Source of the DNA: a virus
Direction: 5' to 3' (one strand)
DNA: 50,393 bases
IMG/VR virus record: IMGVR_UViG_3300023443_001574
Span: 1 to 50,393 of that record
Made by a program: the position numbers and the translations under genes. Each line of letters begins with the position of its first letter. Position 1 is the stretch's first letter. Below are positions 1 to 46,348 of this stretch, one piece after another. The notes below the pieces were generated by a model. It did no database searches. It was not told the DNA's origin and worked only from the letters and a program-made list of their open reading frames with translations.

Positions 1-274
1 TGGAAATTCGAATGATGGGCTCAATGCCTTTTTGACCACATTGAAATTATGGGAAGATGGTTCCAAAAAAATCAAAGGAGTTTGGGAACTTGGAAGATTT
101 GGAATTATAGTAAATGATGACCATTCAAAAGACTTGGAACCTGATGGAGCTGGAATTCCTGCAAATCTGACGAAGGCATTGCTTTGGGAAAGGATAGAGT
201 ACAGGTCTGATTTCAAAGGCAATAGAGAACATTTCGTACTCTACTTCCGTGTGAACAAAGGGGACGGCACGTAG
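1..274 (+). CDS. Distal-tail-like protein, C-terminal part (5' end outside window)
   Basis: The reading frame is open from base 2 to a TAG at 272-274 and matches, almost residue for residue, the C-terminal half of the 174-residue protein at 47553-48077. An internal ATG at 32 is not the real start, because the homologous full-length copy starts 251 bases further upstream. It is followed without a gap by the tail hub gene, whose TTG directly follows this stop. Its place between the tape-measure-like protein and the tail hub suggests a distal tail (Dit-like) adaptor; no recognisable motif proves that. Confidence 0.75.
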   Translation, partial: GNSNDGLNAFLTTLKLWEDGSKKIKGVWELGRFGIIVNDDHSKDLEPDGAGIPANLTKALLWERIEYRSDFKGNREHFVLYFRVNKGDGT

Positions 275-2590
275 TTGGGAAAATTTGCAGAACTCAATGA
301 TATCCTTGTTATTCTAAAAGATCACTCAGGAGACCCCGGAGCTGACGTCAATGGAGACTTTGACTTATCAACAAAATGGATCGTGATAGAATACAAAGAT
401 GAAGTTCCACAATCTGTCAGAATAGTTTTCAATGCAGACTATGGAAGATTTCTGACCAGGACACCAAAAATCAAAAAGAGGGACAGAATCTTTGTCAGAA
501 TTACAGAGAAGGATGGCACTATCACAGAAGATGTTTTTCATGTTAGAAAGATAAAGAAAAAACGTATCCAGGGAGTTGGATTGGGATTGGAAGTAATGTG
601 TCCTCATCAATCCGAAAATCATTGGAAGAGAACAATCTCCTTTAAGAAACGTGGAAAGCGAATATCTGGAAACAAAGCAATAGAAATTTCAGTTGCTGAT
701 CTTAATGCAAGTAAAGGTTCCAAAGATCCTACAATAGAAATTCCAGCTACATTCGACCAAGTTAAAAAACTTGGAAATCGATTTGACGAGAACACTACAA
801 ACAATTACTTTTTTGAATCAGTCAAACTCGAATCAGCAATTGCTGAAATAAAGGACATTGAGTCTCAACCAATAGAAGGAGGAGGTTCCTTTGAACCGAT
901 GTATGTTAGATTCAAATCAAAATACAATCATGTTCCTCCCGGAGTTGACCTGGACACTGTGGTCCTGCAAGCTTTCGAGCAAGGATTCAAAGACAACTCA
1001 GGAGTTTTCAACAGCACTCCTAGTACTACACTAGTGCATCCAACAATTGAATCCGGAGACAGACCAAATATTCTTTCAATGAATTCAGATGAAGATCCAG
1101 AACAGGGAACCAATCTCGTTGCAATTGGAGACAAAACATCTGGTAGTTTCACCAGGGAATGGATGCTGTATGTTGGCGCAAAAGAAACGTTTGACTCCGC
1201 AAAAACTTACGATAATACTGCAAATTACAAACCGGGCCATCTAGTGAAGGATGATGATGCATTAACATATGAAGCAAAAATAAACACTACAGGAAACAAA
1301 CCATCATCTAGTCCAACGCAGTGGGTCCAAAGAACTTTCACAAAACCAGCTCAATGGCTCACTGCCACATCTTACACCATTCATGATTTGGTCCGGAATA
1401 ATGACATTGCATACAAAGCATTACAAACGCATACATCGAGTGCAGGAGATGAACCTGGACTTGATGATACTTTTTGGATAAGAGTTAGCTTTGCTCCAAC
1501 AGTAGATTATTCTCCACTGACAAAAGACAAAGTTCAGTATTGGGTCAATGCTCTTGGTGGAGGAAAACATGCGGCAACTAACAACTCCAAGACTGCAATG
1601 ATAGACCCGAATGTGATAATTGAGGATGCGCTTCATCCAAGAACTTTCGTACGATATGTCAACACAGATCCTAGTTTGATTCCAGCAGAACTCAAAGTAG
1701 GTGGTAATATTCCAGATGCATTTAGAATGTTGGTTATCAATCCAGCCACTGGAGTAGAGACAGGAGCTGGAGATTTTGCAGGAAATGACCCGGCAGGAAT
1801 CGCATTTGCTGGAAAGGTTGCTGAGTTTGTAGATGATGATAATGATGGAACAGGTTTCTGGAGAGTCTTCAAAGGAAGAACCACTGCACAAGACCAGGAA
1901 GTATATGACTGGTTTGAAAGTGATTCTTGGGTCAAGGAACCATGTGAAGGAGGAACATCTTATGTTGATGGAGCTGGAGTTTGTGTAATTGGTTCACGTA
2001 ATGCTAATTGGGTCAAAGGAGCTTACAGATTAACTGAAGTTCTGTTTGTGGGAAAAGTTGGAAGATTCTTTTCTGCTGGCCAGTTTGAATGTGTTCATTC
2101 TGTCAAATGGGATTCCGGAAATTCGAGAGTTGATATGGGCAATGAAAAAATAATTGAAGAACTTGACTCTACTACATCAGCAGTCTTCATCAAGTCAGCG
2201 CCATTGGACACAACCAGGACCTTTCCATTCTTTGTCGGATTGAATTTTCATGCTATGCATCCATTCACGTCTAACGCAATACCATTCGGAGCAGTTACAA
2301 TTGGAGAGAAAATTAAGCATCCAACTATGGATTTGAACAATATGGATTTGACACATCTTCTCAAATCAGAATGGTTTGGACCAGGAGTTGAGGATTACTA
2401 TCCACTACAAGCTATTCTTGCATGGATGAAACTTTCAATCAATGACTCAGTCTTAGGATTTTTTGATCAACTTGATGGTGATTTCAAAATTGGAATTTCA
2501 TTGTCTGACAGAAATGACAACACAATGATAATAGAATACACTCACAGCAGAAATTCCAAGGTATTGCCATTAGAAGGTCTACTTTCAAAA
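1..2590. repeat. Left copy of diverged terminal overlap (pairs with 47804-50393)
   Basis: Every position x here corresponds to x+47803 at the right end, from base 1 to the last base of the window, with no net insertion or deletion. The copies differ by scattered, mostly synonymous substitutions (12 in the first 274 bases by my count) and by a dense block of replacements near 1180-1450. The final 114 bases (2477-2590 against 50280-50393) are identical. Gene order is consistent with one genome read past its own start, so I treat this as the wrap-around of a circular or circularly permuted map mixed from two strains. Confidence 0.9.
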
Positions 2591-3169
2591 CTAAAACCAT
2601 ACCAGGGAGTTCCAGGAACCTCTGCATTTTTGGCAGCACAGGAACCTTCCGGAATAGTGGCCTTTGATCCTACAGAATTTCTATGGGGTTGTATCTATAC
2701 AAGAGACTCATTTGATAACCAGGGACGTTATCTTGGATTGCGTTCCAGATTCCTAACCAAATCAGAGATGAAGATGTCAATTGATGCATGGCGATGGGCA
2801 AAACCCCTGGTGGCCACTAATGTAGATGAACCAAATGCAAAACCAGATGTAAACATAGAACCTCAGAAATATCAGAAAGCATCAATTGCAAATTATGCTC
2901 AACTCAAAAATTTCATCCTGGGATTAGCAAAATTTGTGAACTTTGACAGACGTTCAATTACCCTGGAAGTGGCCAACGGAATTCCTGTTCAGTTTGGAGA
3001 TCCGGTCTTTCTTACTGATGCGGAATCAATTGATGATGCAGATGATTCAATTGCAAATACTTTCAAAGGAGTTGCAGATGGAATCACATTCTCATTGTCT
3101 AAACCAAAGAATGGTCCTGGCGGACTAAAAAAATTCGTTAGAATTGTCAGGAGGTTGTATCCAACATAG
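275..3169 (+). CDS. Tail hub / receptor-binding protein with two chitin-binding-like modules
   Basis: A 964-residue protein starting at a TTG that directly follows the previous stop. Residues about 310-400 contain two consecutive modules with the pattern aromatic-x5-Y-x2-G-x-L-V, a short turn, then Y-E/K-A, P and a closing W: first NYKPGHLV with YEAK and QWVQ, then SYTIHDLV with YKAL and FWIR. This is the pattern of CBM5/12 (type 3 chitin-binding) modules, known in phage tail proteins that bind surface glycans. Position after the tape measure and distal tail genes and before the fibre fits a tail hub (Tal/gpJ-like). No lytic domain was recognised. The right-end copy differs most in these modules, as expected for a host-contact surface. 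Hub role is inference; the module pattern is seen. Confidence 0.7.
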   Translation: MGKFAELNDILVILKDHSGDPGADVNGDFDLSTKWIVIEYKDEVPQSVRIVFNADYGRFLTRTPKIKKRDRIFVRITEKDGTITEDVFHVRKIKKKRIQGVGLGLEVMCPHQSENHWKRTISFKKRGKRISGNKAIEISVADLNASKGSKDPTIEIPATFDQVKKLGNRFDENTTNNYFFESVKLESAIAEIKDIESQPIEGGGSFEPMYVRFKSKYNHVPPGVDLDTVVLQAFEQGFKDNSGVFNSTPSTTLVHPTIESGDRPNILSMNSDEDPEQGTNLVAIGDKTSGSFTREWMLYVGAKETFDSAKTYDNTANYKPGHLVKDDDALTYEAKINTTGNKPSSSPTQWVQRTFTKPAQWLTATSYTIHDLVRNNDIAYKALQTHTSSAGDEPGLDDTFWIRVSFAPTVDYSPLTKDKVQYWVNALGGGKHAATNNSKTAMIDPNVIIEDALHPRTFVRYVNTDPSLIPAELKVGGNIPDAFRMLVINPATGVETGAGDFAGNDPAGIAFAGKVAEFVDDDNDGTGFWRVFKGRTTAQDQEVYDWFESDSWVKEPCEGGTSYVDGAGVCVIGSRNANWVKGAYRLTEVLFVGKVGRFFSAGQFECVHSVKWDSGNSRVDMGNEKIIEELDSTTSAVFIKSAPLDTTRTFPFFVGLNFHAMHPFTSNAIPFGAVTIGEKIKHPTMDLNNMDLTHLLKSEWFGPGVEDYYPLQAILAWMKLSINDSVLGFFDQLDGDFKIGISLSDRNDNTMIIEYTHSRNSKVLPLEGLLSKLKPYQGVPGTSAFLAAQEPSGIVAFDPTEFLWGCIYTRDSFDNQGRYLGLRSRFLTKSEMKMSIDAWRWAKPLVATNVDEPNAKPDVNIEPQKYQKASIANYAQLKNFILGLAKFVNFDRRSITLEVANGIPVQFGDPVFLTDAESIDDADDSIANTFKGVADGITFSLSKPKNGPGGLKKFVRIVRRLYPT

Positions 3170-3369
3170 CCACTTCCGCAGGTGTACGACCACTTTCAAG
3201 TGAGTCAGCCAGAATTCAAAGAGCTCTCATCAAGGATGAAGAACAATTCATACAATCACTAAAGATTTTTAATAATACTTCAATTGTTGGCTCTGCTGGA
3301 GCTCAAAGCGCAGGAATATCTAACGCTCCAACAGAGGGTGGAAACTTTCTGAGAAGAGAAGGAGACTTT

Positions 3370-6300
3370 ATGATTGGTCAGTTGGGCCTCCATCCAATAC
3401 TTGTCACAATTGCATCCGGTGTTATAGATGCTAGACTGGTTGCAGATGCTTTCACAAGTAGATTGATTGTGAATGGGGAAGGAGGAGCCAGTGATGACCT
3501 TGATCAGATTCTCAGTGAAAAGCAACCTGGCTCAATTGTGGTAATTCAAGGAATTGTTGGCCAAGTATTAACAATCAAAAATCTTGCAAAAGGTGGAGGA
3601 GATGAAGACATTCGAACCCCTGGTGGAGTAGACTTTTTTGTAGTTGGAGAACAAAATGTCACTGTCATCTATGATGCAGTAAACAATGAATGGGCTTTCA
3701 TGGATGGAGCTCTAGTCGGAGTCGGAGATGTTCCAGATGGAACCGTAGAGAATGATCATCTAGAATGGGATAACATTGGAAAGGCATGGATAGCTCAACA
3801 ATTCTTTGAATTTGGTTCTGGTAATCTTCCAGCAGTTGGAGATTTACGTTTCAAAAATAATACAATTGCTGCTGCATTCAGAAATTTTGCTAATACTGGA
3901 GATATCGAAGTCAAAGTTGATACAAATGACTTTGTTGATATCACTGAAAATAATAACGGTCTTATCACTTTACGACTCAGAGCTCAGCACGCAGTAAATC
4001 CTGATCAATCACTTACACTCACACAACTATCAGGAACCGGAGGAGCAGCTACATTTGCCAGTCCAACTCAGATAAATCTGGATATTGGAGCTACCGGAGT
4101 TATCAGCATCACAGTAACTGGTGTGAGCTTGAATGATCTTGATTTGACTGATGTTACAAATATCATTGGAAGAGATGATGCAACTCCATTCAAGATCATT
4201 TTTGATGCAGCAGAAGATTCTGACACTTTCATCTCAGATGACACTGCAACTGCAGATAGAATCAATGTAACAGCTGGAGGAGTTACTTTCTTTTCCTGGT
4301 TACATGATGGAACCAGACCAATTGCTGGAATCGTATCTGGCGCAAATGGCATCCTGACAATATCTGATGGCCAATTTGCAGGAGATGCCAGAGCTGTTCC
4401 TCCGGATGCGGATATTGATAATGATGCTTTGAATTACTATATTGATACTAGTTCAGATCCTCCAAGAGCAGCCTTTAAGAGAAAAAGTACTGTCGGAGTT
4501 GTCACTACTGGAACCTATCTCTACTCTCCAGTAGATTTTGATATTGAGTTTACAACTTCCAATACTGATATCGGTTCATCTGTAACTCCATATGATGCTT
4601 CATTCCTGAGACGTCTGATGCTCGTATCAGGAGGATCATTGCTGACTGGTTCCCTAATGGCCAGAAACAATGCAGGAGACTTTGAATTCAACGTTCCAGT
4701 AGCAGGCGATTTATATCGATTCTTTTGGGCTGGTGGAAATGATATCCTCTTTACTTTTGGTGGAACAACCAACGAAATTCAAGTTGATACTCTGAATGCA
4801 CAATTACAACTTACACTACAACCAACAGCAATCAATCCAGCTATTGACGGCATCATCCGACACGTCACTGGTGGAGATGTAAAAGTATTTTCAGGTGGGG
4901 TCCTTCGCAATATGTCAGATATTGGCAGTGGCGCACCTCCATTTGATGACAACCAAGTAATTATTCAAGATAATTTAGATAACACGAAAACACTCACGTT
5001 CAATCTATCTTTACAGAATCCACTGGCTGCAAACCTTCTTTCATGGGCTGCTGGCGGTTCTCGTACCCATACATTCTCATCAACATCTGGAACAATAGCT
5101 CAACTAAATCTAGCACAAACATGGACAGCTGAACAAACATTCAATGCAGATATACAGCTTGGTGCAAACATTGACCTTACAGGAAATAGAAACATTGAGA
5201 TTGGTAGCGATGTTTTAGATATTCGTCATTCTGATCTTGATGGTCTTGTAAATACAAGAGTTATGACAGGAAATCAAAGTGTAGGAAGAACATCTTTCAT
5301 GCTTGACTTAGAAACCACTGGAGATGTTCAGACAGGTGGAGGTCCTATAATTAGTTTCAGATATACCGATTCAATCCAAACAAATCAAATCTTAGGAGAA
5401 ATGGGTTTTGTAAGAGGTAGTGGTACAAATGACAGTGACTTTATTCTTAAAGTTACACTAAATGGTGGTAATGTTGAAAGACTAAGAATTGATGAGAATG
5501 GAGTAGCGACATTTACTGGTGATGTTACTTTAGCAGCAGGAAAAAATCTAACTCTCCAAGCGTCAGGTGCAGTCGGTTTTATGGATATTGGTGAAATTAC
5601 AACACCAGGAGATCCATCAGCCAATTTCGGAAGATTATATACAAAAGATGTAGCAACAACTCATTCCGAATTATTTTATCGTGATGAATTAGGAACTGAA
5701 ACAAATCTACTTGCTGGTAGTGGAAGTTCATTCGCAGATGATGTATTCGATATTCACGATGATGTAACGCCAGCTAAGATTTTACAATTTACATTAGCAG
5801 GCCTAACCAGTGGAACAAGTTTGATTAATGTTCTAACAACTTCGGCAGTCAGAACATGGTCACTTCCTGATATAACAGGCACATTTGCTTTGCTACAAGG
5901 AACACAGACATTTTCAGGCGCAAAAACATTCTCTGCAAATCTAACAATGAGTGCAGCCGATATTATAATGGCTGACAACGATGTTTTAGGTCTTAATGAA
6001 CTTGGATTCACTGACAATCATCAAATTCGAGGTTTATCTACTGGAATTGAAATCGAAACATCATCTAACGATTCATTCAAGGTAATCGAGGGAAATTCAA
6101 ACGATAGAATTTTGACTTTTGATAATTTTATCATAGGAGCTAATAGAGTCAGTCGTTTGATACTTGAACATAATGTTGCAGCAGTTCAAAGTCCTGTTAT
6201 AATGGTATTCAAAAATCAAGCGAACGCAGCAAGTAACCATTCAATAGCCCAGATCTTTTATGAACAAGATAATGCAAGTGCAGTGGTAACAGATTTTGCC

Positions 6301-6591
6301 CGAGAACAAGTAGATGTATTAGATGCTACGAATAATGGGGAGGAAGCCTCATGGTTCGTGCAAGTTATAGCAAATGGTAGTTTAAAAAATGTTATTCAAG
6401 GTGATGGCAATTCCAGTGGAAATATTAATCTAGCATTTCGTGGCGCAACCCCACAATCAGCACCAAACTATACAATTTCAAATCCAACAACTGATAGAAC
6501 CCTTGACGTTGCAAATGAACTTCTTGATGGTGTTCGTGAAACACTAGGAACTCTAATACAAGATTTAATCGATGTAGGACTGTTGACTTAA
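3370..6591 (+). CDS. Long tail fibre / adhesin-like protein; true start lies upstream
   Basis: A protein of 1073 residues from the first ATG, rich in G, T, N, D and short beta-type segments, as in tail fibres. Near 5590-5720 it has the segment PGDPSANFGRLYTKD followed by ELFYRDELGTETNL, a pattern I know from many phage fibre proteins. The C-terminal 40 residues are charged and helical. The frame stays open upstream to 3142 and reads as coding (for example NFLRREGDFM just at the annotated ATG), yet has no ATG, GTG or TTG there; the real start is therefore undecided, perhaps a rare ATA codon at 3166 after an AGGAGG at 3149-3154. It follows the tail hub, the usual place for fibres. Confidence 0.75.
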   Translation: MIGQLGLHPILVTIASGVIDARLVADAFTSRLIVNGEGGASDDLDQILSEKQPGSIVVIQGIVGQVLTIKNLAKGGGDEDIRTPGGVDFFVVGEQNVTVIYDAVNNEWAFMDGALVGVGDVPDGTVENDHLEWDNIGKAWIAQQFFEFGSGNLPAVGDLRFKNNTIAAAFRNFANTGDIEVKVDTNDFVDITENNNGLITLRLRAQHAVNPDQSLTLTQLSGTGGAATFASPTQINLDIGATGVISITVTGVSLNDLDLTDVTNIIGRDDATPFKIIFDAAEDSDTFISDDTATADRINVTAGGVTFFSWLHDGTRPIAGIVSGANGILTISDGQFAGDARAVPPDADIDNDALNYYIDTSSDPPRAAFKRKSTVGVVTTGTYLYSPVDFDIEFTTSNTDIGSSVTPYDASFLRRLMLVSGGSLLTGSLMARNNAGDFEFNVPVAGDLYRFFWAGGNDILFTFGGTTNEIQVDTLNAQLQLTLQPTAINPAIDGIIRHVTGGDVKVFSGGVLRNMSDIGSGAPPFDDNQVIIQDNLDNTKTLTFNLSLQNPLAANLLSWAAGGSRTHTFSSTSGTIAQLNLAQTWTAEQTFNADIQLGANIDLTGNRNIEIGSDVLDIRHSDLDGLVNTRVMTGNQSVGRTSFMLDLETTGDVQTGGGPIISFRYTDSIQTNQILGEMGFVRGSGTNDSDFILKVTLNGGNVERLRIDENGVATFTGDVTLAAGKNLTLQASGAVGFMDIGEITTPGDPSANFGRLYTKDVATTHSELFYRDELGTETNLLAGSGSSFADDVFDIHDDVTPAKILQFTLAGLTSGTSLINVLTTSAVRTWSLPDITGTFALLQGTQTFSGAKTFSANLTMSAADIIMADNDVLGLNELGFTDNHQIRGLSTGIEIETSSNDSFKVIEGNSNDRILTFDNFIIGANRVSRLILEHNVAAVQSPVIMVFKNQANAASNHSIAQIFYEQDNASAVVTDFAREQVDVLDATNNGEEASWFVQVIANGSLKNVIQGDGNSSGNINLAFRGATPQSAPNYTISNPTTDRTLDVANELLDGVRETLGTLIQDLIDVGLLT

Positions 6592-6596
6592 TTATA

Positions 6597-6698
6597 ATGT
6601 ATTACAAGACTTCGTTAGCAAGAATAATGTATGGTGAAACTCGTGTTGTTGTTGCATTGTTAATGTTTGATCTTAGATATCTTGGATTATTAGGGTAA
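6597..6698 (+). CDS. Very small hydrophobic protein (33 residues)
   Basis: ATG to TAA reading frame placed five bases after the fibre stop. The product begins MYYKTSLARIMYGETR and continues with a hydrophobic C-terminal half containing VVVALLMFDL. It fills the otherwise empty gap before the next gene. It may be a small membrane protein or chance; there is no motif to decide. Confidence 0.35.
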   Translation: MYYKTSLARIMYGETRVVVALLMFDLRYLGLLG

Positions 6699-6728
6699 TC
6701 CTTTTAGGTGTCTAATCTAGGTGAAATC

Positions 6729-7016
6729 ATGCCAATAGATAATGATAACATTCAATCTCACATTACTTCCTTGGAAACTAAAGAACGGGAGCTTAGGACA
6801 AAGATGGGCCAGATAAGAACTGCATATAGCCATCTTTTTGACATACTTCAAAGAGAAACACTAGAATCAGATCCTAACTTTCCAGATGATCGTACTAAAG
6901 ACATCAAGGTTCCTGTAGATATCATGGATGATGAAGCAGGCAAAAAAATGGTAGCTGTCAGAAGACAAGAAATCTATGATCATTGGATAGCTGAAGCAGA
7001 TACGTTACTAGCTTAA
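6729..7016 (+). CDS. Small helical protein of unknown function
   Basis: About 95 residues, charged and predicted by eye to be mainly helical, with an N-terminal heptad-like segment (SLETKERELRTKM). I chose ATG 6729 because GGTGA lies five bases upstream (6720-6724), the same ribosome-binding sequence that precedes several TTG genes here; an in-frame GTG at 6708 would add seven residues but has no such site. It stands between the fibre gene and the candidate lysis cassette and could be a fibre chaperone or a minor virion protein. No family was recognised. Confidence 0.6.
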   Translation: MPIDNDNIQSHITSLETKERELRTKMGQIRTAYSHLFDILQRETLESDPNFPDDRTKDIKVPVDIMDDEAGKKMVAVRRQEIYDHWIAEADTLLA

Positions 7017-7062
7017 ATTCCTGAACACTCTAATTTTTATTTCTAAATTTTTTTCCTGAATC

Positions 7063-7455
7063 ATGTCAAAACCTGAGCCAGAGCCAAAAGAGGAAACACT
7101 TACTGAAGAACAAATAGAAAAAATGAAAGCTCGAGGACAGATCGTTGGTCCAGATCAAATGATGCAGATGCTGCAAAACAAGATGATTCTCATCAAAGGC
7201 AATGCAGACAAAGAAGAGCAACGTATTCTTGATCAACTGTTCAATATTTTTGGACGATATAATACATTAAACCAAACACTGAGTACAGAAATCAAATCCA
7301 CAAAGGAAGAGATAACAAGACTCCAGAAACTTTGCAAACTCCATCACATCGATTCCACTCCTCCAAAAAAACGAAAACCAAAAAACAGAAAGGAGAGACG
7401 CCAGGCTGAACGTGAAGCAAAGAAAGTAGTCAAATCTAAGAAAAGAAGAAGGTAG
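7063..7455 (+). CDS. Charged protein with coiled coil and basic tail
   Basis: 130 residues. The N-terminal third is acidic and proline-rich, the middle (about residues 55-95) has heptad-like spacing of I/L typical of a coiled coil, and the last 35 residues are almost entirely K and R, suggesting nucleic acid binding. The preceding spacer is T-rich with a TATA-like stretch. A repeated AGTTCTTTT motif begins at the stop codon (7454). I recognise no family; a packaged DNA-binding or regulatory protein is possible. Confidence 0.65.
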   Translation: MSKPEPEPKEETLTEEQIEKMKARGQIVGPDQMMQMLQNKMILIKGNADKEEQRILDQLFNIFGRYNTLNQTLSTEIKSTKEEITRLQKLCKLHHIDSTPPKKRKPKNRKERRQAEREAKKVVKSKKRRR

Positions 7456-7491
7456 TTCTTTTCTTTTCATAAATTCACTTCAAATAAGTGA

Positions 7492-7704
7492 ATGAGCAAT
7501 CCGGAGAAGAAATGGAGTTGGAAAAAACAGTACGCGAGGCTCATTGGGAATTTTTTAATCAGCTTTGGAACACCTATATTGACCTCATTTGCTCTTACAC
7601 AAGAATTTCTGCTGAGTTTGTATATCGCACTAGGAACTGCTACGGTTATAACGATGATTGCTGCAGGAAAGATGTTAGATGAATGGTCAAGAAAGCATTC
7701 TTAG
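7492..7704 (+). CDS. Small two-pass membrane protein, holin candidate
   Basis: 70 residues with a positively charged N-terminus (KKWSWKKQYAR), a hydrophobic segment at about 17-35, a short turn, a second hydrophobic segment at about 41-60, and a charged C-terminus (DEWSRKHS). This size, double membrane span and charge pattern are those of small holins. It stands upstream of signal-peptide proteins and two metalloproteases, which strengthens the idea of an egress cassette. An overlapping frame at 7488-7682 is less protein-like. Holin function is inference from topology and context. Confidence 0.55.
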   Translation: MSNPEKKWSWKKQYARLIGNFLISFGTPILTSFALTQEFLLSLYIALGTATVITMIAAGKMLDEWSRKHS

Positions 7705-7834
7705 TAAGATCTTACATTTCCTAGACAAGAAATGCGTTCCAATTTGTTCTGATGAAGAAGAAGAATAGTTTGACAAAATACTATAATGTTATTTATCGCA
7801 TATGATAAAACTTGCATTTTTACAAATGCACATA

Positions 7835-7942
7835 ATGACAAAACAAATACGAATAAGTAACAAAATACACAAAGAGTTAAAAAAAGAGGCAACCGACAGA
7901 GAAATGACTATCCAGGAAGTAGCGGAGGAAAGACTAGCATGA
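7835..7942 (+). CDS. Mini ribbon-helix-helix regulator
   Basis: 35 residues beginning MTKQIRISNKIHKELKK, then a helix and the MTIQEVAEERL segment: one beta strand followed by two helices, the ribbon-helix-helix plan of Arc/CopG-type DNA-binding proteins. An in-frame ATG at 7802 would add eleven residues. Its stop overlaps the next ATG (ATGA at 7939), so it is translated together with the secreted protein downstream and may control this gene group. Confidence 0.55.
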   Translation: MTKQIRISNKIHKELKKEATDREMTIQEVAEERLA

Positions 7943-8961
7943 AAAAAATGCTATTTCCGATTGTTGCGTTCTTCATAATTCTGATTGGTATGAGTTTTGC
8001 ATATGCTGACGAATTCAAAATGCCATTCGATCCTGATAATCTAGTTGATCATTGGGTAGATGTGGTCTTCAAGCCAACAGACAATGGAGGAATTGACATC
8101 ATAGTGGTTCACACAAGTACATTTCATTATGACAATCTAATTGAAGTGCCTGACACTATCACAGTCCAGACAGTTGATAACAATGATAGCATCATTGGCT
8201 CAACAGTTGTGACTTTGAAGCAAGGTGCTGAGAAGATATTAGATCCTGAACCAGAACCAACTCCAGCGGAAGAGCTAGGAATATCCGAAGAATCAATGGC
8301 AAGACTTGATGAGAAACGTGCTGAACAAGAGAAGATAGTAAAAGAAGCCTTGACTTGTATCTTAGGAATTGAAGGCAGTTCAATCTTCACAGAATATCGT
8401 GAAAGATTGGTCCTTGAAAAAATGATTTACTTCAAGAGTTTGCCTCTCGGTGGACAGGAAAGACAACTCATACTATGGACTGAGGAATGCCGAACATGGA
8501 ATGAATCATACATCTCAAAATCTCCTGAGTACAGAGACAAGTATCTTGCTGAACGAGACAATCCAGCATACTCAAAAGTATTGGATGAAACTGATTCGTC
8601 ATTTACTGATCCATTAACTGAACAAGATTTCCTAGATGAAATCGAAGATATAGAACGATTCATGTGCTCGATAGAGGGCAAACAGCGAGGACTCTGTGTC
8701 AAAGAGTTTGAAGGAATCAATCAAGGCGGATACACCGAAGGAGCAGAATGTTTGACGCAACTTGGCAAGACAATGTGTCCTCTAAAAGACTATAACGAAT
8801 TGATCTCAAGTTCGATTTCTGCGGAAGAGAATTATACTGAGATTCAGAAACTCGTGTGTGAGAAATACTTGAACCAATACTCAGCTCTAGTCGAACGAAT
8901 CAAAGCAGGCGACGAAACTGCACAACTCCCAAACTGGTTAGCCCATTGTGAGGTTTCATAA
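7939..8961 (+). CDS. Secreted or surface protein with signal peptide
   Basis: 340 residues. The start overlaps the preceding regulator by four bases. Residues 1-24 form a clear signal peptide (KK, a hydrophobic core FPIVAFFIILIGM, then AYADE as a likely cleavage site). A beta-rich region follows to about residue 95, a short PEPEPTP linker, then a helical cysteine-containing region (single cysteines spaced through the C-terminal half), suggesting disulfides outside the cell. The stop overlaps the next start. Together with the following anchored protein and proteases it may act at the host surface during release or entry. No family recognised. Confidence 0.7.
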   Translation: MKKMLFPIVAFFIILIGMSFAYADEFKMPFDPDNLVDHWVDVVFKPTDNGGIDIIVVHTSTFHYDNLIEVPDTITVQTVDNNDSIIGSTVVTLKQGAEKILDPEPEPTPAEELGISEESMARLDEKRAEQEKIVKEALTCILGIEGSSIFTEYRERLVLEKMIYFKSLPLGGQERQLILWTEECRTWNESYISKSPEYRDKYLAERDNPAYSKVLDETDSSFTDPLTEQDFLDEIEDIERFMCSIEGKQRGLCVKEFEGINQGGYTEGAECLTQLGKTMCPLKDYNELISSSISAEENYTEIQKLVCEKYLNQYSALVERIKAGDETAQLPNWLAHCEVS

Positions 8962-10362: not shown

Positions 10363-11025
10363 ATGGAACCAGGAATTCATTGTGAAGCTATAGTCAGCAA
10401 AGCTAATCAAAAAATTGAATTCAAAGAGAACATAGAAGGAATTGACGAATGGCCAATGTCCAAGAACTGGCCAGATGGTGAATTGAGTTATCGATTAAAT
10501 AATTTTTCTGAAGACTTTGCAGAGAAATGGCAGACACGTGCAATCGTTGTTTCATTGAGAGCCTGGAGATGGAGAATTAAAAAAATCTGGTTCAGACGAG
10601 AAAGAAATCCAGACACCAAAGTTGATTTAAATTTTGAATTCAAAGACTTAGCCCACTTTGATAACAAAAAGGGAATATTTGCACACGCTTTTTTCCCTGG
10701 TCAGGGAGCTGCCTCTGGCAATTGCCACTTCAATGATTTTTGGGATTGGGTAGCTGCAAGTAAATGGCAGGATCTAGCACGTGCTCCAATGGTTCCAATT
10801 TCAATTCATGAGATTGGTCACTTGTTAGGTCTTAGACATGACACACTTTCAAGTTCAGTGAACACTGAAATCATGTATCCATCTTTCAATCTTGGAAGAA
10901 AAAAATGGAAACTCGGTCCAAATACTGTTTCAAGAATCCAGGATAGATATGATGCTAGAACAATCAGCCAACGAATTATTGATTATTTTGCTATGAGAAG
11001 ATTCCGGGCCTCTGATTTTCGCTGA
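10363..11025 (+). CDS. Matrixin-type (M10) zinc metalloprotease
   Basis: 220 residues. Residues 149-159 read HEIGHLLGLRH, the complete HExxHxxGxxH zinc site of metzincins, followed by the Met-turn in EIMYPS (Met171). Upstream, GIFAHAFFPGQG and GNCHFNDFWDW (about 104-129) match the calcium and structural-zinc loop of matrix metalloproteases. The fold is thus complete. No signal peptide or propeptide cysteine switch is evident, so it may be released by lysis or carried in the virion. In context with the exported zincin, membrane proteins and secreted proteins upstream it probably cuts host surface protein during release or entry. Confidence 0.85.
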   Translation: MEPGIHCEAIVSKANQKIEFKENIEGIDEWPMSKNWPDGELSYRLNNFSEDFAEKWQTRAIVVSLRAWRWRIKKIWFRRERNPDTKVDLNFEFKDLAHFDNKKGIFAHAFFPGQGAASGNCHFNDFWDWVAASKWQDLARAPMVPISIHEIGHLLGLRHDTLSSSVNTEIMYPSFNLGRKKWKLGPNTVSRIQDRYDARTISQRIIDYFAMRRFRASDFR

Positions 11026-11187: not shown

Positions 11188-11205
11188 AGTAGTAAATAGT
11201 GTTTC

Positions 11206-11235
11206 TTCAATCAATATATTATTATAATATTATAG
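11206..11235 (+). promoter_or_regulatory. TATA-containing promoter of the 11250 gene
   Basis: A run of A and T with TATA-like words sits about 20-40 bases before ATG 11250, the distance expected for a leaderless archaeal transcript. Bases 11206-11228 recur exactly, in inverted orientation, at 18961-18983, where the distance to the start of the minus-strand regulator is the same (21 bases between element and start codon). Confidence 0.65.
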
Positions 11236-11955: not shown

Positions 11956-13113
11956 TTGGCCAAAATAATCAGAAAATCTGAGAAAGTGACAATTCATCAA
12001 AGTGATAAGAAACCTGATAAGAAGATTGATCCACTTTCTCTGGATGATGTTCCAAAGTTAGGACCAATCAAAATCAAGGCACTGGAAGAAGAAGGATACA
12101 CTACGGCTCTACAAGTAGCTTGCAAATCTCCAACGTTTCTAAAAGAAGTCTGTGATATGGACAGAGAAGAAGCAGGAATTGTATTACACTATATCAAAAA
12201 TAAACTCAAAAAAGCAGGTATCCTGGAAAAACAAGAACTTACAGCTCTGGAATTATTGAAACGAAGAAAGCTCGTCAAACGGTTAAAGATTGGTTGTAAT
12301 AATTTTGACAAGCTTCTTGATGGTGGAATTGAATGCGGAGCAATGACACAATTCTATGGAGAGTTTGGTTCAGGGAAGACTCAGATGGTTCATAATCTTG
12401 CAATCCAAGCTCAACTGCCACGAGAACAGGGAGGATTTGCAGAGAAAGACAAACCTCCTCCAATTGTATTGATTATTGATTCAGAAAAAACCACAAGATC
12501 AGAAAGGTTTCTCTCAATCATGGCAGGAAAAGGGATAATCCCAACTAAAATTCCAGCCAAGATTAGAGACAAGCTTCTTGCATACAAAGAACTTGACATA
12601 GAAGAGCAAAAAGAGTATAACATGTTAGTGGCAAAACAGGAAAAGGAAGGTAAGGATTTTCTCAATCATATAGAAATTCAAGAGGTCACTGACACTTACC
12701 AATTATTTCTCAGAGTGCAAAATCTCTTGCAAGTCATGGAACATGTCAACATAAAGCTTGTACTCATCGATTCAATGGTAGCTACTGCCAGAGGAGAATA
12801 CATCGGACGTGGAAATATGAAAGCAAAATCAGAAATACTAAACGAGATGCTACGTAATCTCAAAATAATTTCTGAGAATTATAAGATTCCAATAGTCATC
12901 ATAAATCAAATCTATCACAGACCTGAAGAGGATTATGGAAGAGACCCTGATGTTTTCTATGGTGGAAACATTCTGGCCCACACAGTCACTTATCACATAA
13001 AGCTAAAAAAATCTGGAAAGAAAAGAAAGGCCATAATCACAAAGTCACCTTATCAGGCCAACGATGAGGCAACATTCATTCTTTCAGATGCAGGAATCAG
13101 TGATCCGAATTGA
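11956..13113 (+). CDS. radA: RadA/Rad51-type recombinase
   Basis: 385 residues from TTG 11956, preceded by GGTGAT. Residues 30-90 form a helix-hairpin-helix-containing N-terminal domain (KLGPIKIKALEEEGYTT). Walker A is GEFGSGKT at 135-142 and Walker B LVLIDS at 268-273, followed by the ARGEYIGRGN segment typical of RadA. Relative to cellular RadA there seems to be an insertion of about 40 charged residues at about 196-236, between the two ATP motifs. Forms filaments on single-stranded DNA for strand exchange; in a virus it probably serves recombination-dependent replication or repair. Confidence 0.9.
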   Translation: MAKIIRKSEKVTIHQSDKKPDKKIDPLSLDDVPKLGPIKIKALEEEGYTTALQVACKSPTFLKEVCDMDREEAGIVLHYIKNKLKKAGILEKQELTALELLKRRKLVKRLKIGCNNFDKLLDGGIECGAMTQFYGEFGSGKTQMVHNLAIQAQLPREQGGFAEKDKPPPIVLIIDSEKTTRSERFLSIMAGKGIIPTKIPAKIRDKLLAYKELDIEEQKEYNMLVAKQEKEGKDFLNHIEIQEVTDTYQLFLRVQNLLQVMEHVNIKLVLIDSMVATARGEYIGRGNMKAKSEILNEMLRNLKIISENYKIPIVIINQIYHRPEEDYGRDPDVFYGGNILAHTVTYHIKLKKSGKKRKAIITKSPYQANDEATFILSDAGISDPN

Positions 13114-16021: not shown

Positions 16022-16378
16022 ATGAAACGCGATTATGACAGACTGTATTTAGGAAGCATTACTGTTAGGATGCCAGAATCAATGCTTAAGAAACTTGATG
16101 AAAAATGTGGAGCTGGTCTAAAATATCGAGATAGATCAGAGGCAATCCGTTCTTTAGTTTCTCTTGGAATGCAAGTTGAAAGCTTGTTAGAAATTCAGAG
16201 TGATCCTAAAAAGAAGAAAGAGTTTGAAGAGAAGATCACGTTTCTATTCCAGGAGAATAATCTAGAAAAAACCATGGAGACAATGACAGAGAAAGAGCTC
16301 AGTACAATAATCTTCATCGCAACGAATCTCCAGGATAAGAAGATTCAGCAACTCGTGTTTGACGTTAAGAAGAGCTGA
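16022..16378 (+). CDS. Ribbon-helix-helix transcription regulator
   Basis: 118 residues. SITVRMPESMLKKLDEKC then RDRSEAIRSLVSLGM (about 12-50) is a standard ribbon-helix-helix domain (CopG/NikR-like); the rest is a helical, charged C-terminal region that probably oligomerises. A TATA-like TTTTTTAAAT lies about 25-30 bases upstream (near 15996), so it has its own promoter. Placed directly before the MCM gene, it may control replication genes. Confidence 0.75.
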   Translation: MKRDYDRLYLGSITVRMPESMLKKLDEKCGAGLKYRDRSEAIRSLVSLGMQVESLLEIQSDPKKKKEFEEKITFLFQENNLEKTMETMTEKELSTIIFIATNLQDKKIQQLVFDVKKS

Positions 16379-16382
16379 TTGT

Positions 16383-18389
16383 TTGAGCAAAGTAGAAGCC
16401 AACGAATACACTGAATCAGCTAAACGTGATGTTATCTACAATTTTTTGAAAGACAACAAAGAACTTCGTGACATACTTTACAAATTTACAGCTAGACCAA
16501 GCGGAACGTTCCTTTTCAATCCAATGGGTCAGGACCTAATTTTTGAATGGTTCCTGGAAGATGCTGAACAAATCATCACGCAAACTAAGATAGCCTGTAT
16601 CCAACTCATCTGTGGATGGGGAGGAGAGAGATTACGTGATTCCCTGGTGAAAAATTTCACAGTACAAATTTCTGATTCAAACGAAATTAAGATGCAGGAT
16701 TGGAATGCAGAGTATGAAGGAATTCCAGTATCTGTGAACGTCCAAGTAATTGGAGCATTCAATGAAGAGACATATACCAAATCAGCATATTGTGCTTGTC
16801 CTGAATGTCATCATGGCAAAGAAGTTTTTGACTTGAGCATTGTTCCACGTTGTACTACTGATAGCTGCACACTCAAAGGAACCCTAATGATGGTCAGAAG
16901 AGAGACTTTGAAAACTGGACCAATCAAAACAATAATGATTCAGGAACCACTAGAAGAAGCAAAACACTCTGCTCCAAAAATTTTTCCATGTATTATCAAA
17001 GATGATGATGTAGTTGCAACATTCATTGGCCAACGAAAAAAGATAATTGCAATCTTCAGATCCGAACCACAAAAAGGAAAACCAACTAACCGCATCATGA
17101 TCCACGCAATCTCGGTCCATAGCCTAGGGGAAATGGATGAGATTCAACCAACAGATGAAGAGATGGAAAAATTTATGGCCATGTCCAAACAGGATAACTA
17201 TGTTTCAAAGATAGTTGATTCGTATGCTCCTGAAGTAAGATATGGTGGAACAGAACTTGCAAAGCTTTGTCTGATTCTTTCAATCCTTGGAGGAAACAAA
17301 GCAGGCAGACTCAGAGGATACATTCACGCTTTTCTGGTAGGAGATCCTAGCACAGCAAAATCAAAGATGCTAGAATTCATGCCACTAGTTGTTCAAAAGT
17401 CTGGCTTTGCAGTAGGTGGGACCGCATCAGGTTCTGGTATCACTGTAGCAATGGACACACTGCCAAACAGAATGAAGATGCCACGAGCTGGTCTGATTCC
17501 AAACTGTACTGGAGGATGCGCAGCAATAGATGAACTGAACCAGCTTGAAGATGAGGATCTGGGAAAGGTCTTCGAAGCTATGGAATCTGGCACAATTCAC
17601 TACAATAAAGGTGGATTCGATGTTCTACTAGTTGCGGAAACCGCAATCCAGGCTGGAGCCAATCCACGTGGATATTACTACAACAAATCCAAATCCATTG
17701 TGGACAATATCCATATGCCAGGACCATTGATTGCAAGATTTGATTTGAAAATTCTTCTCCAGGATAGCGACAACACAGTAGAAGAGAGAAACATACTGAA
17801 TCACATTTCCTTGATCAGAGAGATTGGAGTGGAGAAATATGTTGACACAAATGCATTGCTACAGCCACGTGAACTCATGGTGCTGTTCAACCTCGCAAGA
17901 TCATTCACTCCAAAGATGTCCAAAGAAGCAGAGAAATTGATCACAGATTTTCACATGATGATGAAATCACTTCCACAGGATGAAGGCTCATTCAGAATTG
18001 ACAAGAGATTCTTTGAAGCTATTGGAAGGATATGTATTGCATATGCGAAACTTCACTTCCAGAAGACTGTCACAAAAGAGATGGCCATGACAGTAATTGA
18101 GATTTACAAAAAAACTTTGAAGACATTTGGAATGAATGTAGAATCAGGAGAGATGCAACTCTCATTGGAGGAATCAGGAAAAACAAAGGAGACTGCATTT
18201 GTATTTGTTTTCAAAGACAAGCAGGAATCGCTGAATGAAACTTTTCTTCAGGCCGAGGTAGTTCTCAAAGGAATGTGCAAACACTATCCAAGATTCTGGA
18301 GAAACATGGATGAAGCTGCATTGTACTTTGACAAAATGGCCAAAGGTGAAAAGCTAGTTGCAAGAGCAGGAAGGTTCAATCTTTCTTGA
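16383..18389 (+). CDS. mcm: MCM replicative helicase
   Basis: 668 residues from TTG 16383, just after the regulator's stop; an in-frame TTG at 16359 lies inside that gene. The N-terminal half carries CACPEC and a C..C pair (RCTTDSC), the zinc site of MCM. The AAA+ part has Walker A GDPSTAKSK (near 17340), Walker B AAIDELNQ (near 17520), sensor 1 in AGANPRGY and the arginine-finger segment LIARFDLKILLQD (near 17735). A C-terminal helical region follows. As DNA unwinding motor it points to a replisome recruited or partly encoded by the virus; no polymerase or primase gene was seen. Confidence 0.93.
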   Translation: MSKVEANEYTESAKRDVIYNFLKDNKELRDILYKFTARPSGTFLFNPMGQDLIFEWFLEDAEQIITQTKIACIQLICGWGGERLRDSLVKNFTVQISDSNEIKMQDWNAEYEGIPVSVNVQVIGAFNEETYTKSAYCACPECHHGKEVFDLSIVPRCTTDSCTLKGTLMMVRRETLKTGPIKTIMIQEPLEEAKHSAPKIFPCIIKDDDVVATFIGQRKKIIAIFRSEPQKGKPTNRIMIHAISVHSLGEMDEIQPTDEEMEKFMAMSKQDNYVSKIVDSYAPEVRYGGTELAKLCLILSILGGNKAGRLRGYIHAFLVGDPSTAKSKMLEFMPLVVQKSGFAVGGTASGSGITVAMDTLPNRMKMPRAGLIPNCTGGCAAIDELNQLEDEDLGKVFEAMESGTIHYNKGGFDVLLVAETAIQAGANPRGYYYNKSKSIVDNIHMPGPLIARFDLKILLQDSDNTVEERNILNHISLIREIGVEKYVDTNALLQPRELMVLFNLARSFTPKMSKEAEKLITDFHMMMKSLPQDEGSFRIDKRFFEAIGRICIAYAKLHFQKTVTKEMAMTVIEIYKKTLKTFGMNVESGEMQLSLEESGKTKETAFVFVFKDKQESLNETFLQAEVVLKGMCKHYPRFWRNMDEAALYFDKMAKGEKLVARAGRFNLS

Positions 18390-18796: not shown

Positions 18797-18939
18797 TCTT
18801 CAAAAATAATTGTGATGTTGAGATCCTTTCCAAGAAGGCCTTTGTCCTTCAGTTCCTGGTGAAATTTTTTCGGAATATTGACATGAAGAGCTGGTCCTTG
18901 AGTGTTAATTTTAGATATCTGTTCTATAGTATGTTTCAC
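18793..18939 (-). CDS. AbrB/SpoVT-like regulator, the only minus-strand gene
   Basis: 48 residues from a GTG at 18939, chosen because the shared promoter element then lies at exactly the same distance as before ATG 11250. ALHVNIPKKFHQELKDKGLL followed by GKDLNITIIFED is the swapped-hairpin pattern of AbrB/MazE-like DNA-binding proteins. The stop lies at 18793-18795, overlapping the end of the convergent gene. It diverges from the ATPase gene, sharing a promoter region it may bind; autoregulation is inference. Confidence 0.6.
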   Translation of the reverse strand: MKHTIEQISKINTQGPALHVNIPKKFHQELKDKGLLGKDLNITIIFED

Positions 18940-18949
18940 AACTATTTTG

Positions 18950-18983
18950 ACGGATATATTATTATAATAATATATTGATTGAA
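18950..18983. promoter_or_regulatory. Divergent promoter with repeated 23-bp element
   Basis: AT-rich, TATA-bearing space between the minus-strand regulator and the ATPase gene. Bases 18961-18983, read on the minus strand, equal 11206-11228, and lie the same 21 bases before their start codon. Facing right, a TATA stretch near 18953-18966 would fit a leaderless start at GTG 18990. Confidence 0.6.
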
Positions 18984-20714
18984 AAAGTTGTGAAACCGAG
19001 CAAGATTCGTTTAGGCTATGAAATTGATACTGGAAAAGAGATCCAGATATCACCATCACATCTCATCGTTACCGGATTAAGCCAGAAAGCAGGCAAAACC
19101 ACAACGTTAGAGTCTCTAATCAAACGGAGTGGTTCAAAGGCAATTGTGTTTAGAACTAAAATTGGTGAAAAAAGTTTCCTGGATGGAACTGTCATTCCTC
19201 CATATTTCAAAGAAAAAAGTGACTGGCAATACATCGAGAGTTTGATTGAGGCTACAATGAAAGAGAAAGTTGGCAAGCTAGATAGAGCTGTCATAATCAA
19301 ACTCTCAAAAATGACGAGCGGAAAATCATTATTAGAATTTAAAAAAGTGGTAGACAACAGACTGCTAGAAAAAATAAACACATTCGAAAGCATGTTGCTA
19401 ACTAATCTGCAAGCATATCTTGAGATTGTGTTGCCAAAATTGCAGACAATACAATTTTCAAACACTCTTGAACTTGTCAATGGTCTCAACATAGTTGACC
19501 TGGAAAGATTCAGCAGAGACGCAGAAGTGCAGAGTCTAATCATCAGCAGTGTTCTTGAAGAAGTACTACATAATCACAAAGGCGTCATTGTGGTAATTCC
19601 AGAAGCTTGGAAATTCATTCCACAGAAAAGAGGAAATCCATGCAAAATGGTTGTAGAGGAATTCATCAGACAAGGAGCCACTAACGGAAATTATCTCTGG
19701 ATAGATTCTCAGGATATGTCAGGCGTTGACAAAACTCCTTTGAAGCAAATCTCAGAATGGATACTTGGATATCAATCTGAAATGAATGAAGTGAAACATA
19801 CCTTAGACCAAATACCACTACCAAAACAAAGTAAACCAAAAGAAGATGAAATCATGACACTAGGAACTGGCATCATGATATTTGCCAGCAGGGATTTGAC
19901 TGCCAAAGTCTACGTCCAACCTTTCTGGTTGAATGATGAAAAATCAATACAGATAGCAAAAGGTGAATTAAAAATAACAGAAATCGATGCTCCAGAACGA
20001 ATAGTTCAGAGTAAAATTGCAATTCAAACCACTCATGATGATGGAGTTGGCAATGAAGAAGTAAAAGGACTGAAACAGCTTATCAGCAAAGAGTTGATAG
20101 ATATGAGAACCGACTTTTTCAATAAAATAGGAGACATACAAGATCAAATAAACAAAGTCTTTGTAGATATTACAGGAATCAAAACCTCTACACCAGTCAT
20201 TGATGAAGATTCTATAGCATCCAAAGTATTACAAAAAATTCCACAACAAAATCATTCATCAAATCCTGTTGACAAGCAAACATTAATTGCTGAGATTATG
20301 GCCAAGATTCCAGCGTCTCCAGGGGCCATGACTTATGAAATAGCTCCACTTGAAAAAATCAAGAAAGACTTTTTGGAAGAAGCAAAGCAGAAAATTCTTG
20401 CTGATGTTGGAGAATTATCCGATGATGCAAAAAAGACGCTAAAATATTTGGAAGTAAAAAGTAAATTGGTAAAAACAAATGAATTGGTTGAAAAATGCTT
20501 TTTGATGAAAGCTGGAGGAAGTGCTTCCAAGAAAGTAAATAATGCCAGTTTACAACTTCGTGGCTTTGAACTTGCTAGAAAAGGAACTCACAGTGATCAA
20601 GAAGGATGCCTGAAATCTAGGATACAATCTTTGTTGGGAAATCATGAGGCAACAGAACAAGAAATAGAAAATCTGTATCAGCATATTCTCATGGAAATGT
20701 TAGGAGGTGATTAA
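18975..20714 (+). CDS. HerA-like ATPase with long helical C-terminus
   Basis: 579 residues from TTG 18975; an in-frame GTG at 18990 fits the promoter better and would remove five residues. Walker A is GLSQKAGKTT (34-43); VIVVIPEAW (204-212) takes the place of Walker B with the catalytic E kept and the usual D replaced by P; RQGATNGNYLWIDSQD then VDKTPLKQISEWILGYQ resembles the sensor part of HerA/FtsK-type motors. From about 350 on the chain is charged and coiled-coil-like. HerA drives DNA translocation with the nuclease NurA in archaea; no NurA was found here. It could act in recombination or DNA processing. Confidence 0.65.
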   Translation: MIEKVVKPSKIRLGYEIDTGKEIQISPSHLIVTGLSQKAGKTTTLESLIKRSGSKAIVFRTKIGEKSFLDGTVIPPYFKEKSDWQYIESLIEATMKEKVGKLDRAVIIKLSKMTSGKSLLEFKKVVDNRLLEKINTFESMLLTNLQAYLEIVLPKLQTIQFSNTLELVNGLNIVDLERFSRDAEVQSLIISSVLEEVLHNHKGVIVVIPEAWKFIPQKRGNPCKMVVEEFIRQGATNGNYLWIDSQDMSGVDKTPLKQISEWILGYQSEMNEVKHTLDQIPLPKQSKPKEDEIMTLGTGIMIFASRDLTAKVYVQPFWLNDEKSIQIAKGELKITEIDAPERIVQSKIAIQTTHDDGVGNEEVKGLKQLISKELIDMRTDFFNKIGDIQDQINKVFVDITGIKTSTPVIDEDSIASKVLQKIPQQNHSSNPVDKQTLIAEIMAKIPASPGAMTYEIAPLEKIKKDFLEEAKQKILADVGELSDDAKKTLKYLEVKSKLVKTNELVEKCFLMKAGGSASKKVNNASLQLRGFELARKGTHSDQEGCLKSRIQSLLGNHEATEQEIENLYQHILMEMLGGD

Positions 20715-27603: not shown

Positions 27604-29430
27604 ATGGGAGTCACTAAAAAAGTCATAGTTAGACCCCATCACCAGGCTCAGGAAGATAGAAAAAGAAAAGCTGATGCAATTGTAAAGAAGCAGTTAGACT
27701 TTCATTCTGATAAAGAAATTGTTGAAGAGCTTCCCTTACTTCCAATTGATAGAATGCAATGGGAATTGCATTGCAGACCATTCATCAAGGGAAAAAGAAA
27801 CAGGCTTCCATTCTTGCCAATGATAAGAGAAGCTATCCTGGACCCTCATCCATTCAAGCAGTATCTGTGGGGAAGACAATGGGGAAAGACAACTGGATTA
27901 GCTTCAGAGCTTGCACATGCAGCAAGTACTATCAACGATTACGATCAGACTTATGTTAATTTCAAATTAGATAACTTGAGAACATTCTCTGAAAACAAAT
28001 TCCGTCAAGATGTATTTGGCCAAGAACCATTAGCGACTTACGTATCAGGAATCTCAAAGCTTGGTGCAATGAATAGAATAGTAATGAAGACACGTTCCAT
28101 CATAGACATTTTACTTCCTGGTGAGGAATGGTCCAATCTCCTAGGAAAGTCCAATGAAAGAATTGTAGTTGATGAAGGCCAGGATATTGATTGGACTGGA
28201 TTCTTCAATGCAAGAGAAACACAAGCTGACACCATGGGAGATTTGATTATTGCAGGAGTTGGAGGATATACCGACACAGAATATCATAGATCTTGGCTTA
28301 GCACAAATCAGATGGAATGGGAATTCAAACACGGTGAACCGTACAAAGGATATGAGAACATGTCCTGGAGACGAGAAATGGAAGAACGATGCTTTGACAG
28401 TCACGGCCTTGTGTATGATGAAGAACTAGAACGAGTACTTGATGGCAAGTGGGTTCCACGAGCTCCAAAACATTATTCACGCCACGGATATTATTTGCCT
28501 CAAACATACAATCCAAGAATTCCATTAACCATCAAAGATGCAGAACAGCTCTACCATGTATCACCGGAATGGTCCATTGAGTGGAAACAAAAGAACCCTG
28601 ATATCTCCACTATAGATTTCAGAAGAAACGTGATGGCCGAGTTTGTAGAAGGTGAACTCAAACCAATTACCACAAAGATGATGCTCGATTTATTTGACAA
28701 AACCGTTGGACTGACAAGAGCAGAAGATGTAGATCACTATGCTGGCAAAATCTACATTGGAATTGATTGGGGGGGAGGAGGAAAGACCATCATCTGGATT
28801 TGGCAATGCCTTGATGACAATGCTCCAATCTTCAAGCTGCTATGGGTTGAAAGAGTTGAGACAGATGATATCAAGGAGCAAATCAGAATCTGTGAAGAAC
28901 TCATTGATGCATACGAAGGATACCAGATTGTGATTGATGCAGGAGGAGGATCAGCTCAAGTGCAATCTTTACAAAGTCGTTATGCAAGACGCTGTATCAG
29001 AAACTCATATCATGTAAGGCCAGAACGTCCACTGCCAACAGTCCTGGAGAAGCCAAGACTCAACAGGGAAATGCGATATGTGATTGACAGAACTTTTTCA
29101 ATTGATAGAATCATTGATTTGATAAGGCATCCATATCAACACGGAGATTTCATATCTAGCAGAATAATTCTTCCAGGAAAAGACTATGATGATGTCAAAT
29201 GGATAGTCCGTCAGTTTGTTGCACTTGAAGGAGAAAAACACATGCTAAAATCAACTGGCCAGACATACATCAAATACATTCACAAGGATACTGAGCCAGA
29301 TGATGCACTACAAGCTTGCAACTATTCTTTCATAGCCTGGGACATCAACCATGGAGGACGCAAAGTAGAATTCATGCAGCTTCAACCAAAAGATCCATTT
29401 GGTGATGGATACACAACTAGTCCACTTTAA
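27604..29430 (+). CDS. terL: Terminase large subunit
   Basis: 608 residues. Walker A GRQWGKTT (90-97), Walker B IVVDEGQD (187-194) with the catalytic E, then the RNaseH-like nuclease domain with D388 in YIGIDWGGGG, D445 in VIDAGGG and a late acidic pair in EPDDALQA (566-567). All the parts of a phage packaging motor and headful nuclease are present and in order. It pumps DNA into the prohead through the portal. Headful cutting would give the circularly permuted ends suggested by the window's overlap. Confidence 0.93.
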   Translation: MGVTKKVIVRPHHQAQEDRKRKADAIVKKQLDFHSDKEIVEELPLLPIDRMQWELHCRPFIKGKRNRLPFLPMIREAILDPHPFKQYLWGRQWGKTTGLASELAHAASTINDYDQTYVNFKLDNLRTFSENKFRQDVFGQEPLATYVSGISKLGAMNRIVMKTRSIIDILLPGEEWSNLLGKSNERIVVDEGQDIDWTGFFNARETQADTMGDLIIAGVGGYTDTEYHRSWLSTNQMEWEFKHGEPYKGYENMSWRREMEERCFDSHGLVYDEELERVLDGKWVPRAPKHYSRHGYYLPQTYNPRIPLTIKDAEQLYHVSPEWSIEWKQKNPDISTIDFRRNVMAEFVEGELKPITTKMMLDLFDKTVGLTRAEDVDHYAGKIYIGIDWGGGGKTIIWIWQCLDDNAPIFKLLWVERVETDDIKEQIRICEELIDAYEGYQIVIDAGGGSAQVQSLQSRYARRCIRNSYHVRPERPLPTVLEKPRLNREMRYVIDRTFSIDRIIDLIRHPYQHGDFISSRIILPGKDYDDVKWIVRQFVALEGEKHMLKSTGQTYIKYIHKDTEPDDALQACNYSFIAWDINHGGRKVEFMQLQPKDPFGDGYTTSPL

Positions 29431-37163: not shown

Positions 37164-37214
37164 ATCGTAGGCTAGGAGATAGACTAAATAGATAAAAATA
37201 TAATTATATTTTTA

Positions 37215-37559
37215 TTGATAAAAACATATCCACAGTTAAAATATTATTACAAAAACAGAAAAGAAAAGATAACCTATGCCAGTAATCACGGAAAAGAAAC
37301 TAGGCATAAATTGATTCGTCTTTTGAATCCAGAAATCAAATGTGTAAAGTGTGGATTTAATGATATACGAGCTCTTCAATTAGATCATAAAAATGGTCAT
37401 GGATATAACGATAGAAAAATATTCAAATTAAGCGGAACTTCACTTTATCGATTTTATCTAAGTAATCCAGAATTAGCCAAACAAACCCTCCAAGTATTAT
37501 GTGCAAATTGTAATTGGATTAAAAAAAGCGGAAATAAAGAGAATGCTCACGTAAACTAA
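37215..37559 (+). CDS. HNH endonuclease
   Basis: 114 residues from TTG 37215. CVKCGF (first zinc pair), ALQLDHKNGHG (the D-H of the HNH core) and LQVLCANCNWIKK (second pair with the final N) are in the proper order and spacing. An AT-rich spacer with TATA-like words precedes it. It interrupts the connector genes and looks like a stand-alone homing-type nuclease, though HNH proteins also assist packaging in some phages. Confidence 0.85.
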   Translation: MIKTYPQLKYYYKNRKEKITYASNHGKETRHKLIRLLNPEIKCVKCGFNDIRALQLDHKNGHGYNDRKIFKLSGTSLYRFYLSNPELAKQTLQVLCANCNWIKKSGNKENAHVN

Positions 37560-45822: not shown

Positions 45823-45854
45823 TTCCTTTTAGTTCTTCAATCATAAATTAGTTC

Positions 45855-46343: not shown

Positions 46344-46348
46344 ATATT

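Follow-up and report, generated by a model that had tools for sequence, protein, structure and literature searches.

The two ends of this viral contig resemble each other over 2.6 kb without being identical, which raises the question of what kind of molecule, or what kind of assembly, they represent. The window, that is, the whole stretch of DNA analysed, is the entire IMG/VR record of 50,393 bases, and the overlapping ends are the contig's own ends. The earlier note had claimed an end-to-end match with substitutions but no net indel, and this was confirmed: positions 1-2590 and 47804-50393 gave a single ungapped BLAST match with 257 mismatches and 0 gaps, in direct orientation, reaching both contig ends exactly at an offset of 47,803. 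The ungapped identity at this offset is 0.901; the highest value at any other offset is 0.317, the mean being 0.267 with an s.d. of 0.011, and a chance origin of the overlap is therefore excluded. The claim that the final 114 bases are identical and that the sequence then stops also held, the second-longest identical run in the overlap being 89 bases. At the left edge only 13 bases are identical, with the first mismatch at base 14; thus, the contig's two ends are unlike each other. No exact terminal repeat of at least 15 nt was found in the window, where the CheckV direct-terminal-repeat test asks for at least 20 bp. The parts of the overlap are as follows.

1-2590, + strand: left copy of the overlap (variant A), with the 3' part of a 174-aa gene and fibre residues 1-772; 90.08% identical, ungapped, to 47804-50393
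47804-50393, + strand: right copy of the overlap (variant B), running to the contig end; dN/dS 0.14, no stops
2477-2590, + strand: 114-base identical stretch on the variant A side, the same as the contig's last 114 bases
50280-50393, + strand: 114-base identical stretch on the variant B side, the same as 2477-2590; the contig stops here

Relatives of the virus were found via the terminase large subunit, which yielded 23 viral contigs with terminases 51-68% identical to that of the window; those designated G005, G006, G007 and G008 are used below. The terminase and the genes in the overlap and at the join are listed here.

27604-29430, + strand: terminase large subunit (PHROG terminase, E=4e-28)
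2-274, + strand: 5'-truncated copy (90 aa) of the 174-aa tail-region gene, its reading frame open at the contig start; matches the G005 gene adjoining the G005 fibre
47553-48077, + strand: 174-aa tail-region gene in full, extending over the point where the overlap begins; 56% identical to the G005 homologue directly upstream of the G005 fibre
275-3169, + strand: complete fibre/adhesion gene, 964 aa, variant A (PHROG tail fiber, E=1.2e-6; Pfam CBM_5_12)
48078-50393, + strand: fibre gene in its variant B form, truncated at residue 772 where the contig ends; 91% amino acid identity to variant A
3370-6591, + strand: fibre-like gene of 1073 aa that immediately follows the fibre; the genes at this place in G006 (E=2e-6) and G005 (E=6e-6) match it

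As had been noted earlier, the left edge thus cuts a gene that is complete at the right end. When the window was closed in silico from its right end to base 2591, an open fibre frame of 964 aa was obtained, and on such a circular map the 1073-aa gene is the one expected after the right contig end. A scan for close relatives with the single fibre sequence returned none, and a scan with an alignment returned only the fibre of G005.

The differences between the two copies are those expected of genes in use. For the part of the fibre in the overlap, 151.6 synonymous differences over 509.5 sites give a dS of 0.38, and 93.4 non-synonymous differences over 1806.5 sites give a dN of 0.054; the dN/dS is 0.14, and neither copy contains a stop. 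The overlapping part of the 174-aa gene has a dN/dS of 0.12, and the substitutions between the copies fall mostly at third codon positions. Because of the low dN/dS, the lack of stops and the prevalence of third-position changes, the sequences support functional alleles under purifying selection rather than errors or decay. Sequencing error was rejected as a source of mostly synonymous third-position substitutions lacking any indel, and a decaying duplicate or pseudogene was rejected on the grounds of the intact frames and the dN/dS value. The earlier suggestion of two strains behind the overlap is strengthened to this extent, namely that two functional variants are involved. Among the records searched, an exact 27-base search for variant B elsewhere found no other contig carrying it.

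Three of the longer relatives carry exact terminal repeats, of 121 nt in G005 (45,308 bases), 117 nt in G008 (49,129 bases) and 131 nt in G007 (33,709 bases), all of which fall inside genes. Closing these contigs gives open frames of 977, 596 and 439 codons across the join, respectively, and an offset of 1 or 2 bases at the join makes the restored frames much shorter. The three are probably complete genomes of the same lineage, of 45.2 kb (G005), 49.0 kb (G008) and 33.6 kb (G007), and the first two units bracket the 47.8 kb of the window. The gene that is cut is the fibre in G005, as in the window, the portal-position gene in G008 and another fibre-like gene in G007. Since the cut genes differ, the cut points of the contigs are not fixed physical ends. 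The circular order of the shared genes is nearly the same in the window and its relatives, so that cut points vary while circular gene order is kept, as is expected of a circular or circularly permuted map. Because the repeats lie in different genes, the frames are restored on closing and the gene order is kept, the comparison supports a lineage with circular maps that lack a fixed end at a homologous place.

The earlier note had also claimed that the order of the tail genes continues across the join, and two relatives bear this out. In G005, the N-terminal part of the fibre lies at one contig end and the C-terminal part at the other, and upstream of the fibre the homologues of window positions 44434 to 47553 follow in unchanged order. 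G006 (42,549 bases, without a terminal repeat) is unbroken across the equivalent region: the homologue of 44995-45822 is followed by small genes, a gene of 160 aa, the fibre (980 aa) and finally a fibre-like gene of 628 aa. The G006 fibre and the gene after it match the window fibre and 3370-6591 with E values of about 1e-6, the fibre identity being weak at 21-23%. The 160-aa gene stands in place of the window's 174-aa gene, yet no significant similarity between the two was detected, and comparing a profile of the fibre alignment to the fibre of G006 gave no convincing match. Taken singly these sequence matches are weak, and the weight rests on their order.

It is very likely that the genome map is a circle of about 47,803 bases, from a virus that is tailed and probably archaeal, and that the contig follows this circle for 1.05 turns (a whole round and a further 2,590 bases), starting on variant A and ending on a co-occurring variant B. 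The assembler would have started on variant A in the tail region, gone once around the map and re-entered the tail region on variant B, which is about 90% identical there. Assembly would then have stopped where variant B meets the 114-base stretch identical to variant A, and closure would have failed because two viral variants were present. That both variants were present in one sample is what we infer, as are the route taken by the assembler and the mode of packaging. The circular map could derive from circularly permuted, terminally redundant virion DNA (headful packaging) or from circular or concatemeric replicating DNA that was sequenced. Judged by tailed viruses in general, headful packaging would be the likelier source for one that bears a terminase.

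Of the circularly permuted or circular genome of about 47.8 kb proposed in the earlier note, the wrap-around and the unit of 47,803 bases thus stand, upheld by the three relatives with terminal repeats, the restored frames, the shared circular order and the unbroken G006; headful packaging and a truly circular replicating form are indistinguishable from the contig alone. An assembly branch, as proposed, is a plausible account of the right end of the contig but not of the left, where there is no exact overlap. The 114-base final match is an even number, whereas the relatives have overlaps of odd, k-mer-like length, and one k-mer length therefore does not explain the stop. Because of both these observations, a simple k-mer branch explains the right end at most. 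The effect is of a known kind in assembly, with an ordinary mechanism and no new biological structure. Terminal repeats often stem from circular genomes or from linear genomes replicated via concatemers, the repeats that remain when an assembler breaks a circle are as long as the k-mer, and CheckV does not yet detect artefactual chimeras formed by closely related viruses (PMC8116208).

A different arrangement would be two diverged fibres in tandem on the circular map of one virus, each preceded by its own 174-aa gene (fibre B first, fibre A second), with the contig broken inside the tandem. Both copies are coding-intact and most diverged at a carbohydrate-binding module, as alternative fibres might be, and an exact 114-base repeat could break assembly. 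However, a single fibre gene occupies the equivalent place in the closed G005 and the unbroken G006, it would take chance to put a contig end within each copy, and the neighbouring gene would need to have been retained in the duplication without a single indel. We consider this arrangement unlikely.

That the same 2.6 kb opens and closes the contig in direct orientation would also suit a linear virion genome with fixed ends and true long direct terminal repeats, as in T5 or T7. Terminal repeats from concatemer packaging copy one sequence and should be identical, but these copies differ by 10%; moreover, the repeat cuts genes, and the relatives are cut at other genes. Fixed long terminal repeats, which were rejected for the 10% divergence, are scarcely credible. 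Two separate genomes could instead have been misassembled together, in which case the 47.8-kb unit would not be real. If two variants were present, there must indeed be at least one switch between them within 2590-47804, which would make the contig strictly a chimera. Yet the gene order round the map is that of the relatives, the G005 and G008 units agree with 47.8 kb, the major genes all lie on one strand and the base composition is even, which renders an unreal unit highly improbable.

The two variants are most different in one part of the fibre, a module of the chitin-binding type.

1175-1474, + strand: divergence hot spot, fibre residues 301-400, variant A; contains a CBM5/12 module
48978-49277, + strand: counterpart of the hot spot in variant B; CBM5/12 module present

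Of the 100 codons in residues 301-400, 31 are non-synonymous; the rest of the overlap has 36 among 672 codons (Fisher p ~1e-12). Over residues 291-430 the dS is 0.89, compared with about 0.3 in the flanks, and dN is raised too. The Pfam CBM5/12 module is found in the hot spot of both copies, in two stretches in G005 and as a sub-cut-off match in G006. Because dS is also raised, import of a diverged module would be no less likely an explanation than local positive selection. A tentative and rather doubtful extension is that the virus population keeps alternative fibre alleles, that the module (about residues 301-400) is exchanged by recombination between co-circulating variants, and that this allele polymorphism broke the assembly. 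A diversity-generating retroelement was considered for the hot spot and rejected, as the substitutions show no adenine-only pattern and open frames of more than 200 codons contain no Y[MAVL]DD motif.

The identity of the virus was approached through its replication and packaging genes.

16359-18389, + strand: MCM helicase (Pfam MCM, E=3e-43); its phage-collection matches are all archaeal viruses
11956-13113, + strand: RadA/Rad51-family recombinase (Pfam Rad51, E=1e-44); best PDB match 1pzn 'rad51', next RadA; NCBIfam RadA below cut-off
30898-32859, + strand: portal-position gene directly after the terminase, portal by position only, with only a weak HTH family match; in G008 the contig break falls within the homologue of this gene

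The window carries a terminase large subunit, used as the mark of Caudoviricetes, together with archaeal-type replication genes (MCM and the RadA/Rad51 family), the mark of an archaeal virus. Because of the MCM helicase and the RadA/Rad51-type recombinase, the virus is probably an archaeal tailed virus. Bacillus, Geobacillus and Rossellomorea phages have the nearest terminases in the phage collection, with 21-24% identity. No family match to an HK97-type major capsid protein or a portal was obtained in the window, where candidates are given by position only. Two scans of GTDB genome contigs with the terminase found no relative that could point to an archaeal host; phage and plasmid records held no DNA-level relatives, positions 1-8000 had no DNA-level match, and tRNA and Rfam searches found nothing.

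Several known systems invite comparison. As in the direct-terminal-repeat contigs described with CheckV, the ends of the window repeat each other, and its relatives show the exact form with 117-131 nt; in contrast, the overlap of the window is 2,590 bases long and 90% identical and was missed by the exact test (PMC8116208). The window is longer than one unit, like the IMG/VR contigs that run more than once round a genome, but it makes only 1.05 turns, with the second pass on another variant (PMC8116208). With the MCM-bearing archaeal tailed viruses (Methanocaldococcus fervens tailed virus 1 and haloarchaeal tailed viruses) it shares an MCM helicase and a terminase, although its MCM is only ~20-27% identical to theirs. 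In environmental haloviruses, gene orders are circularly permuted and the genes for host recognition vary, and the permuted maps among the window's relatives and the concentration of variation at host-recognition genes are similar, whereas the viruses and the environment are others (PMC3316494).

On the wrap-around reading, an apparently linear record becomes a near-complete genome of about 47.8 kb from a little-known lineage of archaeal-type tailed viruses. For curation it carries a warning, in that there are two versions of its fibre gene and variants are probably mixed in the contig. Diverged overlaps of this kind would form a class of near-complete circular maps that exact terminal-repeat tests miss.

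Further features were observed elsewhere in the window. A 579-aa protein (18975-20714) is 74% identical to its G008 homologue while the terminases are only 56% identical, and judged by these sequences it is strongly conserved. It has a weak PHROG terminase match (E=3e-5), no match in Pfam, NCBIfam or PDB, and none in phage records. At 10363-11025 a Matrixin-type (M10) metalloprotease domain is encoded (Pfam, E=1e-22), with a G007 homologue that is 60% identical. A 64-base palindrome-like inverted repeat lies at 18933-18996, a 32-base near-copy of part of it at 11203-11234, and a perfect 24-base palindrome at 37192-37215. The 748-aa protein encoded at 42151-44397, in the tape-measure position, has many internal repeats at the DNA level.
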